33,308 nucleotides of DNA. Source: a virus. Made by a program: the position numbers and the translations under genes. The notes below the pieces were generated by a model. It saw nothing but the letters and a program-made list of their open reading frames with translations. It did not search any database and had not been told where the DNA came from. The DNA lies in IMG/VR virus record IMGVR_UViG_3300027847_002038, positions 1-33,308 of that record; one strand, 5' to 3'. The first letter of the stretch is position 1. Every line of letters begins with the position of its first letter. Shown piece by piece: positions 2,923 to 33,308 of the stretch.

Positions 2923-3225
2923 ATGCGCAGCCGCAGCAAGAAGAAACAACGTGAATATGTTGAGCGCCGCAAACTGGTTAAGAGGATGCTGGAAGAGCGC
3001 CCATATTGCGAAGCCTGTCCTGTTTTCGCTGAACATGATGGGGCTGGCTCTTACGTTCGCAACGGCAGCGTCGATATCCACGAATTGAAACGCCGTTCTC
3101 AGGGGGGATCCATCACAGATGAATCGAACTGCATGGCGGTGTGTCGCAGATGTCACCAACGTATCGGTGACCGCCCCCAACTCGCTGTCGACTTGGGCCT
3201 CGCTAAAAAAAGTTGGATGCCATGA
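2923..3225 (+). CDS. HNH endonuclease-like protein
   Basis: This 100-residue protein has a compact HNH fold. After a basic N-terminus come C29 and C32 (CEAC), the first-histidine segment DIHELKRRSQGG with H53, N69, and the CRRCHQRIG end with C74, C77 and H78. The four cysteines would hold a structural zinc and H53/N69/H78 the catalytic metal. Family members nick or cut DNA. In many phages a free-standing HNH protein assists terminase packaging, but here it lies among recombination genes and directly upstream of the RuvC-like resolvase, with which it shares an ATGA overlap. It could therefore serve recombination, host DNA degradation or homing. No intron boundary is evident. Confidence 0.8.
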   Translation: MRSRSKKKQREYVERRKLVKRMLEERPYCEACPVFAEHDGAGSYVRNGSVDIHELKRRSQGGSITDESNCMAVCRRCHQRIGDRPQLAVDLGLAKKSWMP

Positions 3226-3773
3226 ACATTCTCGGACTTGATCCGTCGCTTACTTCAACGGGAATATGTGCCGGCGATAACCACGGTGTCGCATATCAGT
3301 CCCGCGAAGAAGATGCAGCGCGGCTGGTGGACATCCGCGACTATGTCTTGCGAATGTGTCTCGAAAATGATGTCAAGTGCGTGATCATGGAGGGCTACTC
3401 TTACGGGTCGCGTACTCGAGCGCACGCCCTGGGGGAACTCGGTGGAGTGCTAAAAGTGGCGTTTAACGAGGCATGGATTCCCTATGTCCTCGTGCCCCCC
3501 ACCTCGCGAGCCAAGTTCGCTACCGGTCGAGGGAACGCCGGCAAGGCTGAGGTCATTTCTGCTGTGTCGTTTAAGACCAACAGATCATGGTCGGGCAAGG
3601 GCATCGAGGATCGCATCGATGCTTGGGTGCTTCATGAAATGGGTCTCGAATATCTTGGCCAGAGTCAGTACGAGTGGCCGGCGGAGAACCGCAAGGCTCT
3701 TGATGGTATCAATTGGGAGCCATTACTGATGATGATAGGAGTGGAGAACGGTGAACCGATCACAACCGATTAG
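3222..3773 (+). CDS. RuvC-like Holliday junction resolvase
   Basis: This 183-residue protein begins with the RNase H-fold strand ILGLDPSLTSTG carrying the first catalytic aspartate (D7). E57 lies in VIMEGYSYGS, and D130 and D133 in the terminal EDRIDAW helix, matching the four acidic residues of RuvC-type resolvases. The enzyme would cut four-way junctions or branched DNA produced by recombination-dependent replication before packaging. The ATG at 3222 overlaps the HNH stop; a TTG three codons earlier is less plausible. Its length is close to bacterial RuvC. Confidence 0.85.
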   Translation: MNILGLDPSLTSTGICAGDNHGVAYQSREEDAARLVDIRDYVLRMCLENDVKCVIMEGYSYGSRTRAHALGELGGVLKVAFNEAWIPYVLVPPTSRAKFATGRGNAGKAEVISAVSFKTNRSWSGKGIEDRIDAWVLHEMGLEYLGQSQYEWPAENRKALDGINWEPLLMMIGVENGEPITTD

Positions 3774-4095
3774 TCAGGTCGACATTGAGAATCAACTCAT
3801 GTACCTGATCGAATCGTTGGAGAGTGAGACGGAAGCCTTCGAGCAGTTGGCGGAAGATGCTGCAAAGAAGGAGTCACGGTACAAGGCCAGTTGGGCCAAA
3901 GAGTACCTTTCGGCTAAAGGGTCAATCAAGGAGCGGGAGTCGTGGGCTGACTACAAGTTGGCCGACACGCAGTTTGACTTCAAGTGCGCCGAGGCTCTCG
4001 TCAAGGCTAAACGGGAGAAGTTACTCTCGTTGCGAACCTCGATTGACGCCATGCGAACCCTCAACGCAAATGTCAGATTTCAAGTAGGTCCGTGA
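3751..4095 (+). CDS. Hypothetical coiled-coil protein
   Basis: This 114-residue protein starts at GTG 3751 with GGAGTGGAG just upstream, overlapping the resolvase by 23 bases. It is highly helical and charged (SLESETEAFEQLAEDAAKK, AKREKLLSLRTSIDAMR) and probably forms a coiled coil or helical bundle. No enzyme motif is present. Its 3' end overlaps the first ParB-like gene, so it could belong to the recombination group or to the ParB/PAPS-reductase cassette. Function unknown. Confidence 0.7.
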   Translation: MNRSQPISQVDIENQLMYLIESLESETEAFEQLAEDAAKKESRYKASWAKEYLSAKGSIKERESWADYKLADTQFDFKCAEALVKAKREKLLSLRTSIDAMRTLNANVRFQVGP

Positions 4096-4880
4096 TGGAA
4101 CACAACGTGAACGAGTCGTTGAAATCCCTGCTTGTTCCTCTGGATTCTCTTACTCCGTTGGAACATAATCCACGGGTTGGAAATGTCCCAGCGATCATGG
4201 CTTCCTACGAGGAGTTTGGTCAAGTCAAACCAGTTGTGGTGAGACCCAATGGCGATGGCATGTCAACCGTTATTGCTGGGAACCATCAGGTCGAAGCAGT
4301 GAGGCGTCTCGGATGGACGCATATTGCTGCCGTGCCGATCGATGCGGACGACAAGCGAGCGGTTGCATTTGCTCTCGCAGATAACCGAACAATGGAGTTG
4401 GGGCATACGGATTCGGCGGAGGCGGCCGAGATGATCGTTCAAATTGTTGATGAGTACAACGATTTGATGGAGAGTCTCCAGTGGGATGATTTCGAAATCG
4501 CTTACTACGAAGAACAGTCCAGGAGGGGAAAATCTGACGATGGGGATGAGGTTGGTTTTATCATCCCGGGGATTACGGAAGTGGTTGGGGCCGCAGCCGA
4601 AATGTTGGCAGGGATGGTCCAAGAAGATGAAGATGGGACACGACAGATTGTTGCCGACGATTCGGTAGACCATGCCGATGTGGCGGTTCAAGGAAGCACG
4701 GCGGTAGTGCCGGGTGCCGCTCCGCGGGCAGTGGTCCAATACACGATCGTTTTTGACGATGCCGACCAGCAGAAGCGGTGGTACGACTTCATCAGATGGC
4801 TTCGAAATAATCCAGGTTATGACGGAACCACCACAGGGCAAAAGATTCTCTCATTTATTGATTCTCATTCAGAAGTATGA
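4095..4880 (+). CDS. ParB-like (IbrB-type) nuclease-domain protein, first copy
   Basis: Residues about 12-105 of this 261-residue protein carry a ParB/sulfiredoxin-fold domain: the NPR motif in LEHNPRVGN, FGQVKPVVVRPNG, the nucleotide-loop equivalent AGNHQVEAVRRLGW, and FALADNRTMELG. ParB-family domains bind CTP or ATP and act as switches, nucleases or kinases depending on the subfamily. The remaining 150 residues are acidic and unassigned. The gene immediately precedes a PAPS-reductase-like gene (4-base overlap), and a second ParB-like gene follows that, an arrangement related to ibrB-ibrA. The GTG at 4092 is an equally possible start. The fold is clear; the biochemical role is not. Confidence 0.8.
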   Translation: MEHNVNESLKSLLVPLDSLTPLEHNPRVGNVPAIMASYEEFGQVKPVVVRPNGDGMSTVIAGNHQVEAVRRLGWTHIAAVPIDADDKRAVAFALADNRTMELGHTDSAEAAEMIVQIVDEYNDLMESLQWDDFEIAYYEEQSRRGKSDDGDEVGFIIPGITEVVGAAAEMLAGMVQEDEDGTRQIVADDSVDHADVAVQGSTAVVPGAAPRAVVQYTIVFDDADQQKRWYDFIRWLRNNPGYDGTTTGQKILSFIDSHSEV

Positions 4881-6007
4881 GTCGTCAGAGAATGTTCCTC
4901 GACATATCGTGTGTCGAGGCGGCCCGACAAAGAATCCGGCACGTTTACGACACATTTGACACCGTCTGCGTTCAGTTCTCCGGGGGCAAGGACAGCACGG
5001 CGGCTTTATACCTAGCCAAAGAAATCCATGAAGAACGTGGCCTGGGTCCAGTAAAAGTCATTTTCCGCGACGAAGAAATGGTCAGCCCGCTCGTCGAAGA
5101 ATACGTCAACATGGTTCGTCAATTCGACTGGGTTGACATGGAGTGGTATTGCTTGCCTGTTGGCGCGGAGATTTGGGTGTTGGGCCGCCGACAGTCTTTG
5201 ATCATCTGGGATGAAGAGCGGGCAAAAGAAGGAAAACTGGTACGCCCCATACCCGACTGGGCCATCACCGCCTTTCATTTTGGGTTAGATCATTCCAAGC
5301 CCTTGACCAAACCCATGGACGAATACATGATGCAGGGCAAGGCCGGTCAGGTCGCTTTTATTACCGGAGTCAGGGCTTCCGAGTCCATGATTCGTTACAG
5401 GTCGGTTGTCCAGAAGTTGAACGAGAATTACATTAATAATCCTTACAAATTGAGCAAGAGCGTTCCCCTCAAGTTGGCCAAAATCATTTACGACTGGAAC
5501 ATTGATGACGTGTTCCGGTTCATTTCGGAAGAACACAACGCGCCCTACTGCGAATATTACGACCGGGCGGTGGTGACCGGATCCAATACTAGAGTCGGAG
5601 TTCCACTGCACGCTGTTGCTGCCCGCCGCCTCGGCGATTTGGTAGCAACGGAACCAGAGTTCTTTGATCGTCTTTGCGAGTGTTTTCCACAAATAGATGC
5701 CCAGCGGCGATGGTGGAAAGATGTTGACGTTGACAAGTTCATCGCCCTCTATTCCGAGAACGGTTGGGAGGGTGTTTCGGAATTCATTGATGCCTACATG
5801 ATCGGACCCGGTAATACTCAGCGGGCTAAGGCGTTGACTGCAGAGTTCCGTCGCAAGCATGCTCGTGATCCATATTCGTATCCATTCGAAAACCTGTTGC
5901 GTCACTTGCTGCTGAAGGAAATTGGTAGCGCCAGGTCAGTAACGCCGGTCGGGCCAAAGACGCGAGCGCATACGCTCCGGTTGAAGGAGAATGAAAATGG
6001 AGATTGA
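4877..6007 (+). CDS. PAPS reductase-like / IbrA-type ATP-pyrophosphatase protein
   Basis: This 376-residue protein has the PP-loop SGGKDST at residues 35-41 and a following FRDEEMVSP segment, the signature of the PAPS reductase / adenine nucleotide alpha-hydrolase family. These enzymes activate a substrate with ATP, often for sulphur transfer. The downstream region with ITGVRASES, WNIDDVFRFI and NTRVGVPLHAVAARRLG resembles the long IbrA/DUF3440-type members found in prophages and plasmids rather than assimilatory CysH. DndC, the DNA phosphorothioation protein, is a more distant relative. It lies between two ParB-like genes with short overlaps at both ends. A DNA or RNA modification, or a regulatory role as reported for IbrA/IbrB, is plausible but unproven. 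Confidence 0.85.
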   Translation: MSRQRMFLDISCVEAARQRIRHVYDTFDTVCVQFSGGKDSTAALYLAKEIHEERGLGPVKVIFRDEEMVSPLVEEYVNMVRQFDWVDMEWYCLPVGAEIWVLGRRQSLIIWDEERAKEGKLVRPIPDWAITAFHFGLDHSKPLTKPMDEYMMQGKAGQVAFITGVRASESMIRYRSVVQKLNENYINNPYKLSKSVPLKLAKIIYDWNIDDVFRFISEEHNAPYCEYYDRAVVTGSNTRVGVPLHAVAARRLGDLVATEPEFFDRLCECFPQIDAQRRWWKDVDVDKFIALYSENGWEGVSEFIDAYMIGPGNTQRAKALTAEFRRKHARDPYSYPFENLLRHLLLKEIGSARSVTPVGPKTRAHTLRLKENENGD

Positions 6008-6563
6008 ATTGGTCGAGGGTGAATCCCTCAACGTTCCCGACTGGGGTGCCACTCATATTCTGAGGCCCGATCTGCTGGTCTTGGCGCGGTCCATCGCCGA
6101 ACACGGAGTTCTTGCGCCACTGGTGGTGCAGCGGGAGGGATCCAATGTCATCGATGGAGCACAGCGCCTGCGTCTCTGTTTGGACAATGCTGCCCTTAAC
6201 GAGGCGTGCGAGGGGAAGGTCCCCGTGGTGTGGATCGACTGTGACAACGCGGAAGCGATGATCTTGCATATCCAAATCAATCGAGGACGTGGGGCGGTGG
6301 TAGCCCACAAGTTGTCCAAATTGATCAAGACACTCAAACGTGTCATGCGTATGACCGACGCTCAATACAAAGATTTATTCAATATGAAATTTGATGAACT
6401 CGAGTTGTTGTTAGATGGTTCGATCATCAAGCACCGGAAGGTTGCGAACCATAGGTATTCTCGGGCGTGGGTTCCGGTAGAGGCTCCGCCGGGGACGACT
6501 GACAGCGATCTGGCGATTCGTCGTAAGGTCGCTATAGAGAAGCCACCCAATCCCGACAGGTAG
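5997..6563 (+). CDS. ParB-like protein, second copy
   Basis: The protein has 188 residues from ATG 5997, which is preferred over ATG 5991 because AAGGAGA at 5984-5990 is correctly spaced only for the later codon. It has a second, divergent ParB/sulfiredoxin-like domain: LARSIAEHGVLAPLVV, the DGAQRLRLCL loop, VPVVWIDC and LHIQINRGRG. Residues from about 105 form a helical segment and the tail is Pro-rich and basic. It overlaps the PAPS-reductase-like gene by 11 bases and ends the first gene block. Its sequence differs strongly from the ParB-like copy at 4095, so this is not a recent duplication. Confidence 0.75.
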   Translation: MEIELVEGESLNVPDWGATHILRPDLLVLARSIAEHGVLAPLVVQREGSNVIDGAQRLRLCLDNAALNEACEGKVPVVWIDCDNAEAMILHIQINRGRGAVVAHKLSKLIKTLKRVMRMTDAQYKDLFNMKFDELELLLDGSIIKHRKVANHRYSRAWVPVEAPPGTTDSDLAIRRKVAIEKPPNPDR

Positions 6564-6584
6564 TGAATGGTAGACTCTTACTTA

Positions 6585-6594
6585 GATTCGAATC
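6585..6594. repeat. 10-base perfect palindrome in the module-boundary gap
   Basis: GATTCGAATC is perfectly self-complementary and lies 15 bases upstream of ATG 6609. It superficially resembles a tRNA T-arm but no tRNA fits around it. It could be an operator. A second palindrome, GCAGCGCTGC, lies at 6798-6807 in the same gap. Confidence 0.35.
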
Positions 6595-6608
6595 CTGTAG
6601 GAGCCTCT

Positions 6609-6830
6609 ATGAAGTTCGGTATATTCAGTGGATTTAGGCTGCTTGTAACGCTCATGTCGTTGCAGCCTTTTTGGATCCAAACCAATTGGGCCGACCGGTT
6701 CAAACTGCGCTCGGGTCTAACTCGCCGTTTGGCAAGTGCTGCTCTCAGGCGGAGGACTTCAGGACGCAGAACCGAGAGCGTAAGAGATCTGACGCGTGCA
6801 GCGCTGCGGAATAGAAGGTCTGGATCGTAG
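6609..6830 (+). CDS. Doubtful small basic ORF
   Basis: From ATG 6609, which has TAGGAG five bases upstream, a 73-residue product could be made; the frame also opens at ATG 6567 without a good ribosome-binding site. The N-terminus is hydrophobic (MKFGIFSGFRLLVTLM) and the C-terminal half is very rich in arginine, so codon use does not look like its neighbours. A terminator-like hairpin at 6636-6672 lies inside it. It may be an artefact of a regulatory gap, or a leader peptide. Low confidence. Confidence 0.3.
   Translation: MKFGIFSGFRLLVTLMSLQPFWIQTNWADRFKLRSGLTRRLASAALRRRTSGRRTESVRDLTRAALRNRRSGS
6636..6672 (+). terminator. Probable intrinsic terminator between early-type and structural genes
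   Basis: AGGCTGC at 6636-6642 pairs perfectly with GCAGCCT at 6662-6668. Inside, AACG pairs with CGTT around a 7-base loop, leaving a 4-base bulge on the 5' side, and five T residues follow at 6668-6672. The position, after the last ParB-like gene and before the first connector gene, fits a transcription boundary. The T-run is short and the bulge weakens the stem, so efficiency is uncertain. Confidence 0.5.
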
Positions 6831-6859
6831 TGACTTGCCTGCGAGGATGGTAGAAACGC

Positions 6860-7510
6860 ATGGCATTAGTAACCAAAGCCGACATTGTCAAATATATGGA
6901 CATGACTCTGAGTCCCTTGCAAGAGGACTCGGCTGATGTGATTTTGGCGGGTCTACAGTCTGAGATGGAAACCTATTTGGGTCGCCCGCTTGAGGTCAAC
7001 ACATACACGGACGAGGTGCATGTGATGGAATCCGATCATGTCGGCGTTCCCATGGGCTCCTTTTTCTACAATTATGACTCTTCTAGCGCTGTCTCTGGCG
7101 CCTGGCCCACCGTCTCGACCTTTACCGATCCGCCCGAGACGGTGTATCTCCGCAATAGTCCTATCGTAACTGTTACATCTGTTACGCGTAGGGGTGCGTC
7201 GGCTTCTGCCACTACGGACACGTTGGTGGAACATACAAATTATGTCATTCGCCGTTACGGAATCGACGTGTACGGCAGCCTGCCCAACGACAAGATCACG
7301 GTCACCTATACGGCAGGCTTGCTGGGTTCCGGCATCCCGATGTTCAAATTGATGATCTTGCGCGCTGCGGCTCGAGAGATGCAGAACATGCACGATGATG
7401 TTGTCGGCATCAAAGATCTCGATCCGAGAGAAACCACTCTGGCGGAAATCGGTTTCATGGAAAAAGAATTGCTCGCCATTAAGAGATACCGGCGCGTAAG
7501 GGTTTCGTAA
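6860..7510 (+). CDS. Head-tail connector protein (gp6-like)
   Basis: The N-terminal part of this 216-residue protein (ITKADI-like ALVTKADIVKYMD, then DSADVILAGLQSEMETYLGRPL) matches the helical start of phage head-tail connector/adaptor proteins of the HK97 gp6 type, which form a ring below the portal. It continues with a beta-rich insert and the typical PIVTVTSVTRRG and KITVTYTAG strands, ending in helices. The gene starts the structural block, directly before a Mu gpG-like gene. The ribosome-binding site is weak (GAGGA 12 bases upstream). Portal, protease and capsid genes, which usually precede it, are not in the window. Confidence 0.75.
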   Translation: MALVTKADIVKYMDMTLSPLQEDSADVILAGLQSEMETYLGRPLEVNTYTDEVHVMESDHVGVPMGSFFYNYDSSSAVSGAWPTVSTFTDPPETVYLRNSPIVTVTSVTRRGASASATTDTLVEHTNYVIRRYGIDVYGSLPNDKITVTYTAGLLGSGIPMFKLMILRAAAREMQNMHDDVVGIKDLDPRETTLAEIGFMEKELLAIKRYRRVRVS

Positions 7511-23506: not shown

Positions 23507-25609
23507 ATGGCCACGACTAGAAACTATTTGAGTCTTGCCAACCATTTAAATATCTACGATTCTGATTACAGCAGAGTAGACGCATCGGTTTACACCACGT
23601 CATGGCAGGCGCTGAACGCCACCATCAGGGTGACGGATACTCCAACAGCGATCATGGATATCGATTATTACGCGTTGGAAATTATGCCAACCAATCTAGG
23701 TAAGGTCACGCTGTATCTGAATAGCATATCTGTGCCCGAGTTTTTGATGGCTCGGGAAATGATATTTCACTGTCAAGTGAAGTGTGCTACTGATGTTGAT
23801 ACGACTACGTCACTGTTCGAAACCGGACAGCCAATGGGGTTGTTGACTGCCAACACGAAGAAAACAACCAGAGACCAGTTTTCAACTGTTCGCAGCAACA
23901 TTTGGCCACTCTTCCGTTACGAGGGCGACAAGACTGGAACGATCGAACTTGATTTTGAAAATCATGGCGGAAACATTATTTATCTAACTATTCCTGCTGT
24001 AATAAATCATTTTGATTTCTATAGGAATTCTGTAGTTCGGTCTTCTAGAACGGTAATACCGGACGCATACTGGAGATTGGACTTTGAGCAGTCCGATCCA
24101 CAGTTTCCTATGTATAAATTGCTGGATACATTAACGAATACATCTAATGATGTCATGCAATTGTTCAGCAACTGGTTCGACCATGAGTTGGATGAACTTG
24201 CTCCCGGCCTTACCGGAACTGAACCTTGGACGAAAAGCACCCTGACGGATCCGACCTTAGCGGATGCGGGGAACATGGATTGGCTCGCCCAATTCACTGG
24301 CTCCGGACTCAAAGGCAATATTGTTGGAACCGATCAGCCGGCAGGAACCGCTCGAGATTTCTATACCGCTTCAACCGATATTAACGCCTTTCTACAATGG
24401 CAGTTGGAAAATTCGTATTACGGAAGGGGGGCCGGCACGCGAGAAGCGATGATATCTGCGGCTCAACGGGTGCTTACGGGAAACAAAGATGTGGCACTCA
24501 TCCCGCACTTTGGTACCCATGCTTGGAAAATCCAGGTGCAAACACTCCGATCCGAAACACAAGATTTCGATGCAAGCACCTTTAGTTCTGATGACGTTTT
24601 AGATGCCGTGGCCCAAGCCTCCCCAATGGGGTATGAGATATTTCATATGGCGGTTCTGTTCTTTGCCTTTACGTTGGGCAATGTCGGTCTTGGTCGGCTG
24701 GGACTGGGTGTGCTGGGTGGACCGGGCGGGTATGTCCCGCCAGATGCTCCAGGAAGCCTGAGTATTTCTGCCGGCGGCACTCCGTCAACCGAACTAACTC
24801 TCACCTGGCCCGCCCCCGCGTACAACGGTGGGGACGTGGTTTCGGCTTATCTGATTCGGCGAGACGGTTCGATCATTGTCGCCAACACGGGCAGCACGAA
24901 CCTGACCTACACCGACACGGGTCGGTCACCGGGCACCGCGTATTCCTACACGGTGGCAGCGATCAACGGCGCCGGTGCCGGTGATCAAAGTCCCAGCGCA
25001 TCGGGAACCACCGATCCGATTGTTTCGAATGCCCCAACGAGCCTGACGGCTGCGGCGGGATCTACGCCTTCCAGCATGATCAACCTGTCGTGGGTTACTC
25101 CTGTCTATACCGGTGGAGCGGCAATCGTCGGCTACCAGATTACGGAGAACCGTGCTGGGGCTGGAGATGTGGTGATTGTCAGCAACACGGGCAGCACCGC
25201 CACCACATACGCCAGGACCGGATTGGACCGTGCTGTTTCGCACACCTATTCGGTCAAGGCAATCAACTCTGCGGGCGTTGGCGCAGCCAGCAACACTGCC
25301 GTGCTCACAACTGCCGCCGAACTTCCGGGTCCTCCAACTGGTCTCACTTTGACTGCCGGATCGCCTGCCATGACGGTAATCAGTCTGTCGTGGACTGCTC
25401 CAACCGAAACCGGTGGGGCGGCCATTTCCGGCTACCGGATCAAGAAGAATGGTTCGATAGTTGTGGCCGACACCGGTACGACAGCGACGACTTATTCGGC
25501 TACCGGTTTGACCGCTGGCGCAACGTATACGTTCGCGGTGGCGGCCATCAACTCTGCCGGTGCCGGTGGGGACAGCAACGTACCGTCACTGACTACATCG
25601 GGATCGTAA
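23507..25609 (+). CDS. Tail protein I-like baseplate protein with three fibronectin III domains
   Basis: The gene follows the J-like gene, the place of P2 gpI. An N-terminal beta domain (residues 1-190) precedes a region (about 195-400) with WRLDFEQSDPQFPMYKLLD, MDWLAQFTG and YGRGAGTREAMISAAQRVL, a pattern typical of gpI-like tail proteins that cap the baseplate arm. A Gly-rich hydrophobic linker (GNVGLGRLGLGVLGGPGG) joins three fibronectin type III repeats at about 413-505, 508-605 and 607-700, each with a TLTW/NLSW/SLSW strand, SGY or AYL strand and TYTxxVAAINxAGxG motif. Fn3 domains on virions are thought to bind host surface carbohydrate. Total 700 residues. Confidence 0.82.
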   Translation: MATTRNYLSLANHLNIYDSDYSRVDASVYTTSWQALNATIRVTDTPTAIMDIDYYALEIMPTNLGKVTLYLNSISVPEFLMAREMIFHCQVKCATDVDTTTSLFETGQPMGLLTANTKKTTRDQFSTVRSNIWPLFRYEGDKTGTIELDFENHGGNIIYLTIPAVINHFDFYRNSVVRSSRTVIPDAYWRLDFEQSDPQFPMYKLLDTLTNTSNDVMQLFSNWFDHELDELAPGLTGTEPWTKSTLTDPTLADAGNMDWLAQFTGSGLKGNIVGTDQPAGTARDFYTASTDINAFLQWQLENSYYGRGAGTREAMISAAQRVLTGNKDVALIPHFGTHAWKIQVQTLRSETQDFDASTFSSDDVLDAVAQASPMGYEIFHMAVLFFAFTLGNVGLGRLGLGVLGGPGGYVPPDAPGSLSISAGGTPSTELTLTWPAPAYNGGDVVSAYLIRRDGSIIVANTGSTNLTYTDTGRSPGTAYSYTVAAINGAGAGDQSPSASGTTDPIVSNAPTSLTAAAGSTPSSMINLSWVTPVYTGGAAIVGYQITENRAGAGDVVIVSNTGSTATTYARTGLDRAVSHTYSVKAINSAGVGAASNTAVLTTAAELPGPPTGLTLTAGSPAMTVISLSWTAPTETGGAAISGYRIKKNGSIVVADTGTTATTYSATGLTAGATYTFAVAAINSAGAGGDSNVPSLTTSGS

Positions 25610-29088: not shown

Positions 29089-32000
29089 ATGGCTGCAATC
29101 ATTCAGTTTCGTAGAGATACCGCCGCCAACTGGACTTCTAATAACCCCACGCTCGCTGCCGGTGAGATCGGGTATGAAACCGATACCGAGAAGTACAAGA
29201 TCGGTGATGGCTCTACTACCTGGACCTCTCTTGGGTACACAACTTTTGGTGGCATTCCTCAAATCTTGATCGACGCTAAGGGCGACCTTGTTGTCGGCAC
29301 GGCAGATAATACGGCTGGGATACTCGCCGTAGGAAGCGATGGGCAGCACCTCGTTGCCGACAGCAGTGCTGCTGGTGGCGTTTCATGGGAAGCCAATACT
29401 GAGAGTGTTGAAGACATTGTTGGCGCTCAGTTCGTTACCAACGGCTCCCATTCTGGTATCGCCGCTACTTATGATGACGCTGGCGACGGTGCAATTGATC
29501 TGAACGTGGATGACTTCACGATCACTCTTGCTGGCGACTTGAGCGGTAGCGCGACTATTACCGACCTCGCTGACGCCACATTGACTGCAACCATTGTCGC
29601 TGACGCAACAGCGTTGGGAACCGACACCACGGGCGACTATGTCGCCAGTCTCGTAGCCGGCACTGGCGTCACTCTCGCTAACAACAGTGGAGAAACTGCA
29701 ACCCCAACCGTTGCCATCGGACAAGCCGTAGGCGCGTCAGACACCCCCACCTTCGGGTCAGTCACAATCTCCAGTACGGTCGCCAACGCGACACACGCTG
29801 CAACCAAGGCCTACGTTGACAACGCCATCGCTGGTCTCGATTGGCACGAGGCCGTCAACTACGCCTCTGCTGCGGCATTGCCGAACACCCCGACCTACGA
29901 CAATGGGACTGCGGGAGTAGGGGCAACCCTGACTACATCAACACAGGTTCGTCTCGTCATCGACGGTGCAAACGCAACTACCGGAAATCGGGTTCTTGTT
30001 CAAGACCAGGCAGCCGGAGCCCATAACGGCATTTATGACGTAACCGCTCAGGGCGCGGCGGGTTCTGCCGCATGGGTACTGACAAGGGCCACCGATTTTG
30101 ACGGAGCACCCACTGGTGAGATCAAAGCGGGCGAAGCCGCCTACGTTCTGGCGGGTTCCACCAACAGCGGCCAGGGCTTTGTAGTCACATCCATAAGCGA
30201 CCCGCACACTGTTGGAACAGACGCGATCACCTGGACCCAGTTCACTGGCACTCAGGCGTTCAGCGCCGGTACGGATCTGACGATTAGTGGTAACACTATT
30301 AACCACGATGCTTCTGGAGTTTCGGCGGCTTCCTATGGGAGCGCTACTCAGGTTCCCGGGTACACCGTTGACGCTCAGGGTCACTTAACTGCCGCCTCAA
30401 ACACTACGATTGCCATTCCGTCAACCGCAGTAACGGACTTCACTGAGGCAGTCCAAGACGCAACTGGAGCCCAGGTGGCCACCAATGGCTCTCACACGGG
30501 CATAGCGGCCACCTACGACGATGCTGGTGACGGAGCCGTAGATCTTACACTTACTGCCTCTGGCGTCTCTGCGGCTTCCTACGGGAGTGCAACTCAAGTA
30601 CCTGGCTACACGGTCGATACTTATGGCCGGTTGACAGCAGCATCTAACACAACGATCGCTGTTCCTTCTACAGCGGTCACCGACTTCACAGAGGCTGTAC
30701 AGGACGTTGCCGGAGCCCAGGTTGTCACCAACGGTTCGCATACTCATCTAACTGCCACCTATGACGATGCGGGTGATGGGGCCATCGACATTGCGCTAAA
30801 TACCACGGCTGTTACCGCAGCCGCCTACGGAAGCGCTACGCAAGTTCCGGGCTACACGGTTGACGCCTACGGACGTTTGACCGCAGCGGCAAACACCACG
30901 ATCGCTATTCCCTCAACAGCAGTTACGGATTTCACGGAAGCCACTCAGGACGTTGCGGGTGCCCAGGTGGCCACCAATGGATCGCATACCGGCATTACTG
31001 CTACCTACGACGATGCCGGTGATGGCGCTATCGATCTGGCTCTCGTCACAGAGAATGTTCAAGACATCACTGGTGCCCAGTTGGCTACCAACGGTTCCCA
31101 TACGGGCATCACCGCAACTTATGACGATGCTGGCGATGGGGCGGTTGACCTTGCCTTAATAACTGAAAACGTTCAGGATATTGTTGGAGGACAGTTAGTC
31201 ACTAACGGTACTCATACTGGTATCGCTGCAACTTACGATGACGCTGGTGATGGAGCCATCGATCTGAATGTCGATGATTTCACAATCACCTTGGGTGGTG
31301 ACCTTACAGGTAACGTCACGATTACTGATTTGGCTAGTGCAACCCTTACCGCAACAATTGCTGCTGATTCTGTCGCCTTGGGCACGGATTCGACAGGCAA
31401 TTACGTTGCCACGGTAGCAGGAACCGCAAATGAGGTAGATGTAAGCGGCTCAGGTTCAGAAACCGCAGCAGTAACAATTGGACTTCCTGCTGCCGTTACG
31501 GTCACAACCTCTCTTACGACTCCTTTGGTCAACGTTTCTGGTGCGTCCATTGTCATAGAGGGCGCTACGGCGAATGACTTTGAGACCACTCTTACGGTTA
31601 CTGATCCCACAGCGGACAGAACGATCACCTTCTTGGATGAAACCGGCACCGTCTTTACGACGGCAAGCGTTCAAGCCCTAGCGGACGGTGTTACCGGTAC
31701 GACTCAATCAGCGAGCGACGCCTCAACGAAACTAGCCACTACGGCTTACGTCGATACCGGCCTTGGTGCTTTGAGTAGCGATTCGATTACTGACGCTGAT
31801 GCCAACACGAAGATTCAGGTTGAGGAATCAGCCGACGAAAACATCATCCGTTTCGATACCGCTGGTACGGAACGTATGTCGATTGCTGCCGATGGCACAG
31901 TAACCATTGTCGGGAATCTGGTAGTCAACGGAACAGAAACAACGATCAGTTCCACAACGATCACCGTTGACGATAAGAACATCGAAATCGGCTCAGTCGC

Positions 32001-32892
32001 TACCCCGACAGACGTTACGGCTGACGGTGGTGGTATCACCCTGAAGGGCGCTACCGATAAGACATGGAACTGGGTCAACTCCACCGATGCGTGGACTTCC
32101 TCAGAGCATGTCGCTCTCGCTACCGGCAAGAGTGTCTACATCGATGGTGTCATCCAACTGTCCAAGAACTCCCTTGCGGCAACTGTAGTTCTCGCTGATG
32201 GTGTGATCGCTACTACCCAGTCGGCTGATGACAGTTCGACAAAGGTCGCGACTACAGCGTTCGTAATGACGGAGGTCGGTGACTACCTGCTGACTGCTAC
32301 GGCGGCCAGCACTTACGCTCCGTTGGCTTCTCCAACGCTCACTGGTGTTCCTGCTGCTCCAACTGCAGCAGCAGATACGAACACGACACAGATTGCCACT
32401 ACGGCTTATGTCCAGACAGAACTGGGTGCTCTTAGTAGTGACTCAATCTCAGATGCTGATAGCGACACGAAGATTCAGGTTGAAGAGTCCGCAGACGAAG
32501 ACAAGATCAGGTTTGATGTTGCAGGTTCAGAGTTCGCTGTCATGGACGGCTCTACTGTGGATGTCACCGGTAACGTCATTTACAACCTTGCCCGTGAGAC
32601 CCAGACTGGCACTACCTACACCTTTGTGGCCGGTGATCGTGGCAAGTACGTCACCATGAACAATGCCTCGGCGTCCACTTGTACCGTTCCCCCGAACAGC
32701 GGTGTTACTTTCGCTGTTGGAACGCAGGTGCAGGTCATCCAGTTGGGCGGAGGCCAGGTAACCATGGTTGCCGGTTCTGGTGTAACGTTGCGTTACACGC
32801 CGGGTTTGAAACTTAGGGCTCAATACTCGTCTTGTACTTGCATTAAGATTGCTACAGACGAATGGATCGTTATCGGCGATCTAGATGACTGA
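29089..32892 (+). CDS. Giant repeat-rich tail fibre / receptor-binding protein
   Basis: This 1267-residue protein has a good AAGGAG site. Residues 1-55 (IIQFRRDTAANWTSNNPTLAAGEIGYETD, then KIGDGSTTWTSLGY) form the short Mtd-type N-terminal attachment domain shared by many fibres. A copy of the dispersed fibre domain lies at about 248-388. Six copies of a module with TNGSHTGIAATYDDAGDGAID follow, some separated by SAASYGSATQVPGYTVDAxG segments. After residue 880 come two copies of an ATTAYV..LGALSSDSI..KIQVEESADE module 660 bases apart. The last 90 residues (TGTTYTFVAGDRGKYVTMNN and VITMVAGSG-like strands) form the tip. It is probably the main long fibre. Confidence 0.85.
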   Translation: MAAIIQFRRDTAANWTSNNPTLAAGEIGYETDTEKYKIGDGSTTWTSLGYTTFGGIPQILIDAKGDLVVGTADNTAGILAVGSDGQHLVADSSAAGGVSWEANTESVEDIVGAQFVTNGSHSGIAATYDDAGDGAIDLNVDDFTITLAGDLSGSATITDLADATLTATIVADATALGTDTTGDYVASLVAGTGVTLANNSGETATPTVAIGQAVGASDTPTFGSVTISSTVANATHAATKAYVDNAIAGLDWHEAVNYASAAALPNTPTYDNGTAGVGATLTTSTQVRLVIDGANATTGNRVLVQDQAAGAHNGIYDVTAQGAAGSAAWVLTRATDFDGAPTGEIKAGEAAYVLAGSTNSGQGFVVTSISDPHTVGTDAITWTQFTGTQAFSAGTDLTISGNTINHDASGVSAASYGSATQVPGYTVDAQGHLTAASNTTIAIPSTAVTDFTEAVQDATGAQVATNGSHTGIAATYDDAGDGAVDLTLTASGVSAASYGSATQVPGYTVDTYGRLTAASNTTIAVPSTAVTDFTEAVQDVAGAQVVTNGSHTHLTATYDDAGDGAIDIALNTTAVTAAAYGSATQVPGYTVDAYGRLTAAANTTIAIPSTAVTDFTEATQDVAGAQVATNGSHTGITATYDDAGDGAIDLALVTENVQDITGAQLATNGSHTGITATYDDAGDGAVDLALITENVQDIVGGQLVTNGTHTGIAATYDDAGDGAIDLNVDDFTITLGGDLTGNVTITDLASATLTATIAADSVALGTDSTGNYVATVAGTANEVDVSGSGSETAAVTIGLPAAVTVTTSLTTPLVNVSGASIVIEGATANDFETTLTVTDPTADRTITFLDETGTVFTTASVQALADGVTGTTQSASDASTKLATTAYVDTGLGALSSDSITDADANTKIQVEESADENIIRFDTAGTERMSIAADGTVTIVGNLVVNGTETTISSTTITVDDKNIEIGSVATPTDVTADGGGITLKGATDKTWNWVNSTDAWTSSEHVALATGKSVYIDGVIQLSKNSLAATVVLADGVIATTQSADDSSTKVATTAFVMTEVGDYLLTATAASTYAPLASPTLTGVPAAPTAAADTNTTQIATTAYVQTELGALSSDSISDADSDTKIQVEESADEDKIRFDVAGSEFAVMDGSTVDVTGNVIYNLARETQTGTTYTFVAGDRGKYVTMNNASASTCTVPPNSGVTFAVGTQVQVIQLGGGQVTMVAGSGVTLRYTPGLKLRAQYSSCTCIKIATDEWIVIGDLDD
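29398..31275 (+). repeat. Six-copy module in the giant fibre gene
   Basis: Modules begin near 29398, 30442, 30688, 30934, 31048 and 31162. Copies 2 to 4 are spaced 246 bases apart, and copies 4 to 6 are spaced 114 bases apart. The shorter period lacks the SAASYGSATQVPGY segment. The first and last copies share a following DDFTITLxGDLxG segment, so the array is framed by matching ends. Confidence 0.8.
31735..31878 (+). repeat. Duplicated distal module, copy A (copy B at 32395-32538)
   Basis: Both copies encode ATTAYV, then LGALSSDSI, DAD, TKIQVEESADE and RFD with high identity. They lie exactly 660 bases apart in the same frame near the C-terminal end of the giant fibre. Confidence 0.75.
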
Positions 32893-32910: not shown

Positions 32911-33308
32911 ATGGCTGGAGAACCGAGGGATCAGGGTCCCCGGAAAGAAGAAGTCCCCAACATTGTTGGGCAGACGGCCACTAACGCCAACTCTCAGATC
33001 ACTTCAGCCGGGTTCGATGTAGGAACGGTATCGGAGACACCCGCCCCTTCGGGAAACCCGGGGGTAGTAGACAATGTTGTCAGCCAGGTGCAGACGGCTG
33101 GCAACATCATGGTGTTGTCGACAGACATCGACTACACCAAATACAACCCCCACTTCCCGCCGTACTTCCCACCGTTCTTTCCGCCTCACTTCCCCCCATT
33201 CTTCCCACCCTTCTTTCCGCCTCACTTCCCCCCCTTCTTCCCGCCCTTCTTCCCACCTCACTTCCCTCCATTCTTCCCACCGTTCTTCCCCCCATTCTTC
33301 CCCCCATT
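32911..33308 (+). CDS. PASTA-domain protein with Pro/Phe/His 12-residue repeats (partial, runs off the window)
   Basis: The frame opens at ATG 32911, with AAGAGGG ten bases upstream, and is still open at the window end (132 codons seen). Residues about 15-75 form a PASTA-like domain: VPNIVGQTATNANSQITSAG, FDVGTV, then VVDNVVSQVQTAG. PASTA domains bind peptidoglycan fragments and are best known from serine/threonine kinases and penicillin-binding proteins. From residue 81 the protein is a repeat of HFPPFFPPFFPP-like units encoded by 36-base repeats. It could be a virion protein that touches the cell wall, or part of the lysis apparatus. The product's total length is unknown. Confidence 0.65.
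   Translation, partial: MAGEPRDQGPRKEEVPNIVGQTATNANSQITSAGFDVGTVSETPAPSGNPGVVDNVVSQVQTAGNIMVLSTDIDYTKYNPHFPPYFPPFFPPHFPPFFPPFFPPHFPPFFPPFFPPHFPPFFPPFFPPFFPP
33151..33308 (+). repeat. 36-base tandem repeat, pyrimidine-rich
   Basis: CAC codons mark unit starts at 33151, 33187, 33223 and 33259, exactly 36 bases apart. The + strand is almost purely C and T. Units encode HFPPxFPPFFPP with Y or F in the variable position. The array is cut by the window end. Confidence 0.85.

Follow-up and report, generated by a model that had tools for sequence, protein, structure and literature searches.

What would a phage do with a PP-loop ATP pyrophosphatase encoded between two ParB-like proteins? The question is raised by a 33,308-base IMG/VR virus record, IMGVR_UViG_3300027847_002038 (the window hereafter), which is probably a fragment of a larger virus genome. 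An initial annotation had described an overlapping cassette of these three genes at positions 4095-6563, and the cassette is real: on the plus strand, a first ParB-like gene (ParB-A), the PP-loop gene (PP) and a second ParB-like gene (ParB-B) follow one another in the same direction with overlapping junctions. Below we argue that this triad probably forms the core of a system for phage DNA hypermodification, one that would adenylate its target and work with interchangeable decorating enzymes. The system is known here from its genes, and the argument is built on their position and conservation.

Conservation of the triad and of its PP-loop site

We asked how general the arrangement is. Viral contigs were scanned with the window's PP protein (best 80 loci of 579 relatives) and then three more times with seeds from phages of Mycobacterium, Bacillus and Rhizobium, each scan keeping its best 80 loci; at 80% identity, this gave 98 non-redundant PP loci in all. 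The contigs are fragments and the gene calls mechanical; partners were counted by script, and the additions given in brackets were judged by eye from coordinates, where an over-long start of an open reading frame (ORF) hid the partner. ParB-A was found upstream of PP in 75 (+3 hidden by such ORF-start artefacts) of 83 evaluable loci and ParB-B downstream in 85 (+5 by eye) of 93, while both flank PP in 63 (+8 by eye) of 78 evaluable non-redundant loci. The median overlap in triad loci is 4 bp on both sides. A reciprocal scan from the window's ParB-A covered 73 loci, of which 69 have a PP gene downstream. Because the ParB-A/PP/ParB-B order is conserved across non-redundant loci, a chance arrangement is excluded. 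The three genes thus do co-occur, a test that the initial annotation had set; the two-ParB form is not peculiar to this phage but the normal form of the whole phrog_2302 branch.

The triad is also present in isolated Arthrobacter, Mycobacterium, Bacillus and Rhizobium phages, and Kovu, Waltz, Obutu, prophi79-1, 031MP003 and RHph_I4 are cultured phages with the cassette. Single-chain PP–ParB fusions were not met in passing, although no systematic search for them was made. In four related viruses, a ParB-A 56-57% identical to that of the window stands without PP downstream in a different neighborhood, which includes an ORF recognized, by reading only, as ribonucleotide-reductase-like.

Next, we considered the PP protein itself, using an alignment of 59 triad and 78 IbrA-type non-redundant sequences. 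Residues invariant in both branches include R19, S35-S40, D65, E67, W111, R123, R166, E169, R173, D206, W207, D211, Y228 and R239, the pattern expected from sequence of a working PP-loop site. The active sites of the homologs are therefore not degraded: the PP-loop site is intact in every one of the aligned sequences. The assignment of the protein to the IbrA type holds in part. Both SGGKDST and FRDEEMVSP are present in the window protein and the invariant residues are shared, but DUF3440 (PF11922) is lacking, with no match at E 0.1; the same domain gives a match of 1e-86 in a Streptococcus phage IbrA and is Pfam-confirmed in two phage members. An AlphaFold model (mean pLDDT 83.7) has FAD synthase and CysH as its nearest PDB folds, followed by TtuA, TilS and GMP synthetase. 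No cysteine is universally conserved across the aligned triad and IbrA branches. Cys225, characteristic of the triad branch, aligns with the YC motif of FAD synthase, and Cys92 occurs in about 85% of each branch and is missing in Kovu, 031MP003 and RHph_I4.

Family assignment by Pfam, PHROG and NCBIfam profiles placed ParB-A in PF02195 (E 1.4e-6) and phrog_723 (2e-35), PP in PF01507 (1.6e-9) and phrog_2302 (8.9e-76), and ParB-B in phrog_2159 (2e-24), the Pfam ParB_N score of the last (17.9 bits) being under the 26.3-bit cut-off. Profiles of the two ParBs score 432/77 on ParB-A and 67/274 on ParB-B, so the two represent distinct families, in agreement with the earlier view that they are unrelated. 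ParB-A has the box AGNHQ (4275-4289) as its GERR equivalent, the motif LADNRT and a conserved C-terminal segment, YxxVFDxxxQQxxWxxFxxWLR. Its AlphaFold model (pLDDT 71.7) is nearest to Noc, ParB, KorB, Srx and SerK folds in PDB, with Noc/ParB closest, and its sequence relatives include ParB domains of phage DNA methyltransferases. In ParB-B the pocket residues IDGxxR (6150-6167) and N97-R98 (6279-6284) are conserved. ParB-B and IbrB both have the IDGxxR and NRxRG motifs and W160; judged by sequence, ParB-B is the IbrB ortholog and ParB-A the added partner. A ParABS partition system does not fit: TIGR00180 gives only 33.0 and 15.0 bits for the two ParBs against a cut-off of 58.45; no ParA-type gene was detected among the cassette neighbors scanned with Pfam.

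Exchangeable partners and the ParB-A-to-terminase slot

How the triad is accompanied in other phages is more telling. Outside the window's marine clade lie 65 of the 98 PP loci. A small GNAT protein is present in 25 of the 65, a class I S-adenosylmethionine (SAM) methyltransferase in another 25, and both in none. Either one is encoded after ParB-B, in some loci directly after PP, and in one upstream of the triad; an HNH-like protein often joins them, followed by terminase. The hypergeometric P for this exclusivity, 6e-8 with independence assumed, overstates the significance, given the relatedness of the loci. A minimum of seven exchanges between the two partners is required by well-supported branches in the PP tree, and parsimony needs 13, only slightly fewer than with shuffled labels (mean 17). 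Never found together and repeatedly exchanged, GNAT and methyltransferase therefore behave as interchangeable alternatives. The methyltransferase family, phrog_11826, occurs in 18 of 50,697 phage records, every one a triad phage, and the HNH-like protein in five of the 50,697, again all triad phages. Among phage proteins, the GNAT is best matched by the product of Kovu gene 8; Kovu represents the GNAT form of the triad, Salgado and Waltz the methyltransferase form. A Mom-like identity for the GNAT was ruled out, since it has no Mom PHROG match and matches only generic acetyltransferase families.

A further clue is the position of the module. Cluster B mycobacteriophages and their relatives have a ParB-A homolog as gene 1, with terminase a short interval downstream; across Bclasvirinae and relatives, both TerL (45-74% identity) and ParB-A (43-74%) are homologous. 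In Obutu the slot between them holds PP and ParB-B. In Boyle (Rosebushvirus) and CRB2 it holds a DpdA-like TGT with QueC/QueD/QueE and FolE, in Apex a weak Tet_JBP-like oxygenase with an ADDT amino acid:DNA transferase and a P-loop nucleotide kinase, and in NTR1 a TAGT glycosyltransferase; DNA methyltransferases are also among the occupants in mycobacteriophages and relatives. In a wider sample of actinophage-type ParB-A (80 viral loci, 55 non-redundant), at least 26 of the 55, counted by local profile matches rather than curated annotation, have 7-deazaguanine, TET/JBP, TAGT, N6/N4 or C5 DNA-modification enzymes beside or fused with ParB-A. Seven more of the 55 have a ParB-methyltransferase of unspecified substrate, and three have the PP and ParB-B module. 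A search around the 98 PP loci with 14 query enzymes of the other slot modules found none of them. Since the triad is widely conserved and occupies the slot of DNA-disguising enzymes in related phages, it is probably an uncharacterized DNA-modification system. The window itself has the homologous ParB-A and the module without an adjacent terminase, the full slot order being seen in Obutu and other actinophage loci.

As a separate observation, the slot of Gordonia phage Mariokart (1-4175) holds a GNAT-containing protein and a formyltransferase-like protein. Besides Mariokart, nine viral loci (six non-redundant) have in this slot a GNAT-containing protein of about 370-400 residues; in some the N-terminus is ATPase-like and the partner formyltransferase-like. 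This is possibly another undescribed DNA-modification module.

The cassette in the window and its marine clade

Positions of the cassette genes, PP motifs and neighbors are collected in Table 1. The ATG of ParB-A overlaps the TGA of the upstream gene, with GTG 4092 also in frame; the ATG of PP overlaps the ParB-A stop by 4 bp, and the ParB-B ATG and the PP stop have a 17-bp overlap, ATG 5997 being an alternative start. The absence of terminase downstream of the cassette raised the suspicion of a chimeric assembly at 6563-6860. This was ruled out, as near-identical and roughly 71-85% identical contigs keep the gene order; with downstream synteny kept in independent contigs, the cassette is no assembly artefact. 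No tRNA or Rfam match was found anywhere in the window.

Table 1. Cassette genes, PP-protein motifs and adjacent genes of the window
Feature	Position	Strand	Description
RuvC-like resolvase (phrog_159)	3213..3773	+	syntenic neighbor; context, outside the cassette
phrog_1389 gene	3751..4095	+	1-base overlap with ParB-A; neighbor kept in the window's clade
ParB-A	4095..4880	+	ParB/Srx-fold protein, 261 aa
PP-loop ATP pyrophosphatase (IbrA/PAPS-reductase-like, phrog_2302)	4877..6007	+	376 aa
PP-loop SGGKDS	4979..4996	+	residues 35-40; no variation among the 59 triad and 78 IbrA-type non-redundant sequences
FRDEE	5063..5077	+	residues 63-67; D65 and E67 invariant in both branches
GVRASESxxR	5366..5395	+	residues 164-173; G/R/E/S/R invariant or nearly so
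Cys225 codon	5549..5551	+	sole near-invariant Cys of the triad branch (98%); the IbrA branch has Asn here
ParB-B	5991..6563	+	ParB-fold protein, 190 aa; IbrB ortholog by sequence
Small basic ORF after ParB-B	6567..6830	+	relatives have Arg/Lys-rich ORFs at the same position

In place of the exchangeable partners, the window's clade has the phrog_1389 gene before ParB-A and the small basic ORF after ParB-B. No GNAT, phrog_11826 or N6/N4 methyltransferase was found elsewhere in the large contigs of the clade, nor TerL (PF03354) in its larger contigs. The ORF after ParB-B is short and fast-evolving, with about 19-38% Arg and Lys, and often ends in a (R)DIIRRG-like sequence. By reading only, a ThyX-like (flavin-dependent thymidylate synthase) ORF was recognized between ParB-A and PP in seven loci of the clade and a dCMP-deaminase-like ORF upstream of ParB-A in about nine. 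The recombination nucleases next to the cassette, to which the initial annotation had drawn attention, are not the telling neighbors; the informative ones are the GNAT, methyltransferase, HNH and terminase genes of relatives and the DNA-modification genes of the slot. Further along, the window encodes a 700-residue tail or baseplate protein with three C-terminal fibronectin type III domains (23507-25609), a 1267-residue tail protein with an Mtd_N domain at its start and long repeats inside (29089-32892) and, beside the latter, a PASTA-domain ORF (32911-33308) whose terminal HFPPFFPPFF repeats run off the contig.

Candidate functions and relation to known systems

If the triad modifies DNA, its components could act as follows. 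The PP-loop protein would bind ATP and adenylate a substrate atom on DNA, such as a base carbonyl, and a nucleophile would then displace the adenylate; the nearest folds of the model, FAD synthase (an adenylyltransferase) and CysH, lend support to adenylation. In many relatives, a GNAT or SAM methyltransferase would add an acyl or methyl decoration, and we propose that the final mark varies between phages because the two decorate differently. Modification would take place before packaging, and the resulting mark would protect the DNA from host restriction. ParB-A and ParB-B may be nucleoside triphosphate (NTP)-switch partners that handle the DNA, delivering or licensing it, much as DpdB, a ParB-like ATPase, reportedly does for DpdA (PMC12839542); ParB domains have been linked to DNA modification (PMC12839542 on DpdB; PMC12783734). 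The earlier suggestion of an enzyme complex that modifies phage or host nucleic acid thus stands as probable, given the conservation and the intact active site. Its proposed link to phosphorothioation is not supported, as discussed below.

The best of the alternatives, although an unlikely one, is a pair of co-activators, regulatory or epigenetic, like IbrA/IbrB (YbdN/YbdM). PP and ParB-B would control phage or host gene expression, possibly through modification of a protein or of RNA polymerase, with ParB-A as an accessory DNA-binding factor. The motifs common to ParB-B and IbrB fit this idea, as does the finding that, in nearly all of 80 bacterial loci, an IbrA-type PP-loop gene is followed by an IbrB-type ParB partner. 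The ybdNM pair is present in E. coli K-12, and IbrAB is reported to activate eib genes (Sandt 2002, as cited in PMC10434257). However, a co-activator leaves unexplained the swap with DNA-modifying cassettes, the mutually exclusive GNAT and methyltransferase partners and the place before terminase. Moreover, the co-activator effect could itself result from DNA modification.

PP-loop proteins, GNATs and SAM methyltransferases are all common among tRNA-modification enzymes. Modification of tRNA or another RNA in the manner of TilS or TmcA (PP-loop with GNAT or methyltransferase), serving translation of phage transcripts or escape from tRNA-targeting defense, would account for such partners and for TilS and TtuA among the structural matches. 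Nonetheless, DNA is the likelier substrate in view of the two ParB-fold partners and of a slot that DNA-modification cassettes also use, Pfam found no RNA-binding domain, and we regard this option as distinctly unlikely.

It is also improbable that the phage carries out DndC/SspD-like DNA phosphorothioation or counters that of its host. The Dnd/Ssp systems (DndC, SspD) do resemble the triad in combining a PAPS-reductase-like PP-loop protein with a ParB-superfamily protein (DndB), the first 80 residues of PP give weak DndC and BrxP profile matches, and host IscS could supply sulfur. Yet the triad has no conserved Cys pair, Cys225 being replaced by Asn in the IbrA branch, and none of 13 phage records has an Aminotran_5 (PF00266) cysteine desulfurase. 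Because conserved cysteines and a phage desulfurase are both lacking in these data, sulfur is disfavored as the nucleophile. A padloc scan of the three proteins yielded no Dnd/Ssp partner, and no DndA/D/E or SspB/C was seen.

The location just before terS/terL in many phages, with an HNH-like gene between, could instead suggest packaging or cos-site handling, in which the ParBs nick or mark DNA for the neighboring terminase and the PP protein supplies energy. This seems quite improbable: the same slot holds base-modification enzymes, and the triad lies away from terminase in the window's clade as well as in the phages of Bacillus and Rhizobium. Finally, a cysH auxiliary metabolic gene (AMG) of assimilatory sulfate reduction, as the PF01507 match and published annotations of related genes as PAPS-reductase AMGs (PMC8879888, PMC10434257) would have it, is hardly credible, since the catalytic ECGLH cysteine motif is absent from sequence and alignment, linkage to ParB genes holds almost throughout and the active-site pattern is common to IbrA.

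Several observations weigh against DNA hypermodification. In the window's clade, the triad adjoins RuvC and head–tail genes, not terminase, and GNAT and the phrog_11826 methyltransferase are absent from 11 records of the clade. The slot evidence comes from actinobacteriophages, in which ParB-A has about one-third identity with that of the window, and the figure of at least 26 loci counts local profile matches, as noted. The GERR arginine is missing from ParB-A, whose NTP use is therefore uncertain. Modification of tRNA is another activity of PP-loop and GNAT enzymes, and a role as transcriptional co-activator has been reported for E. coli IbrAB.

On balance we favor hypermodification of DNA, and more tentatively raise the possibility of a new class of it. 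In such a class, a PP-loop protein with two ParBs might install a non-sulfur, adenylation-driven core and swapped GNATs or methyltransferases might vary the mark, whereas IbrAB/YbdNM might be cellular relatives that make a DNA mark and so regulate genes epigenetically. Although cultured actinophages commonly carry the cassette genes and marine viromes contain them in abundance, the usual labels are partition protein or AMG of sulfur metabolism; phage papers label them AMGs, co-activators or partition proteins (PMC8879888 and PMC10434257 among them). In the literature searched, which covered few subscription journals, we found no description of the triad, the GNAT/methyltransferase exchange or the slot replacement. 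If the triad does make a new DNA base, it would add a chemistry class to phage counter-restriction, supply interchangeable decorating enzymes for DNA, correct a recurrent AMG misannotation and offer a way to test what E. coli IbrAB/YbdNM does.

Among known systems, the Rosebush-type 7-deazaguanine system shares the slot, the homologous ParB-A as first gene and the homologous terminase, and its QueC is also a PP-loop-type enzyme; the triad differs in having no TGT/DpdA or preQ0 pathway and in having a second ParB. Work by Hutinet and colleagues from 2019 is said to have found 7-deazaguanine in the DNA of Rosebush-type phages. The actinophage TET/JBP, ADDT and TAGT cassettes occupy the same ParB-A-to-TerL interval but, unlike the triad, apply oxygenase, transferase or glycosyltransferase chemistry to modified pyrimidines. 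FAD synthase (FMN adenylyltransferase) is the nearest PDB fold by E-value and shares YC/DW/SGGKD motifs, whereas the triad PP protein, which has no known role with flavins, is 376 residues long, with a C-terminal helical region and ParB partners. The bacterial Dpd system likewise places a ParB-fold NTPase (DpdB) beside a DNA base-modification enzyme (PMC12839542); the triad has a PP-loop protein instead of a TGT, two ParBs and no restriction genes that we could see.

A close relative is IbrA/IbrB (E. coli ECOR-9; the related pair ybdN/ybdM in K-12), where a PP-loop gene with the same invariant residues is followed by an adjacent or overlapping ParB gene, orthologous to ParB-B by sequence and in the same position. 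When E. coli genomes were searched for the PP gene at the DNA level, no match appeared. The IbrA (DUF3440) branch has one ParB, and in a sizeable minority of the bacterial loci an SNF2-type helicase gene lies upstream of IbrA-IbrB, which suggests a three-gene module. In Microbacterium phage Dewdrop (1112-6167), a PP-loop/DUF3440 protein without a ParB neighbor is the last in a series made up of three glycosyltransferases, an acetyltransferase and a methyltransferase, according to the record annotation. The triad differs from IbrAB in its PP protein, which lacks DUF3440 and has Cys225 where IbrA has Asn, in the addition of ParB-A upstream and, among relatives, in GNAT, methyltransferase and HNH partners instead of the SNF2 helicase. 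The components and the IbrAB pair are already known by name.

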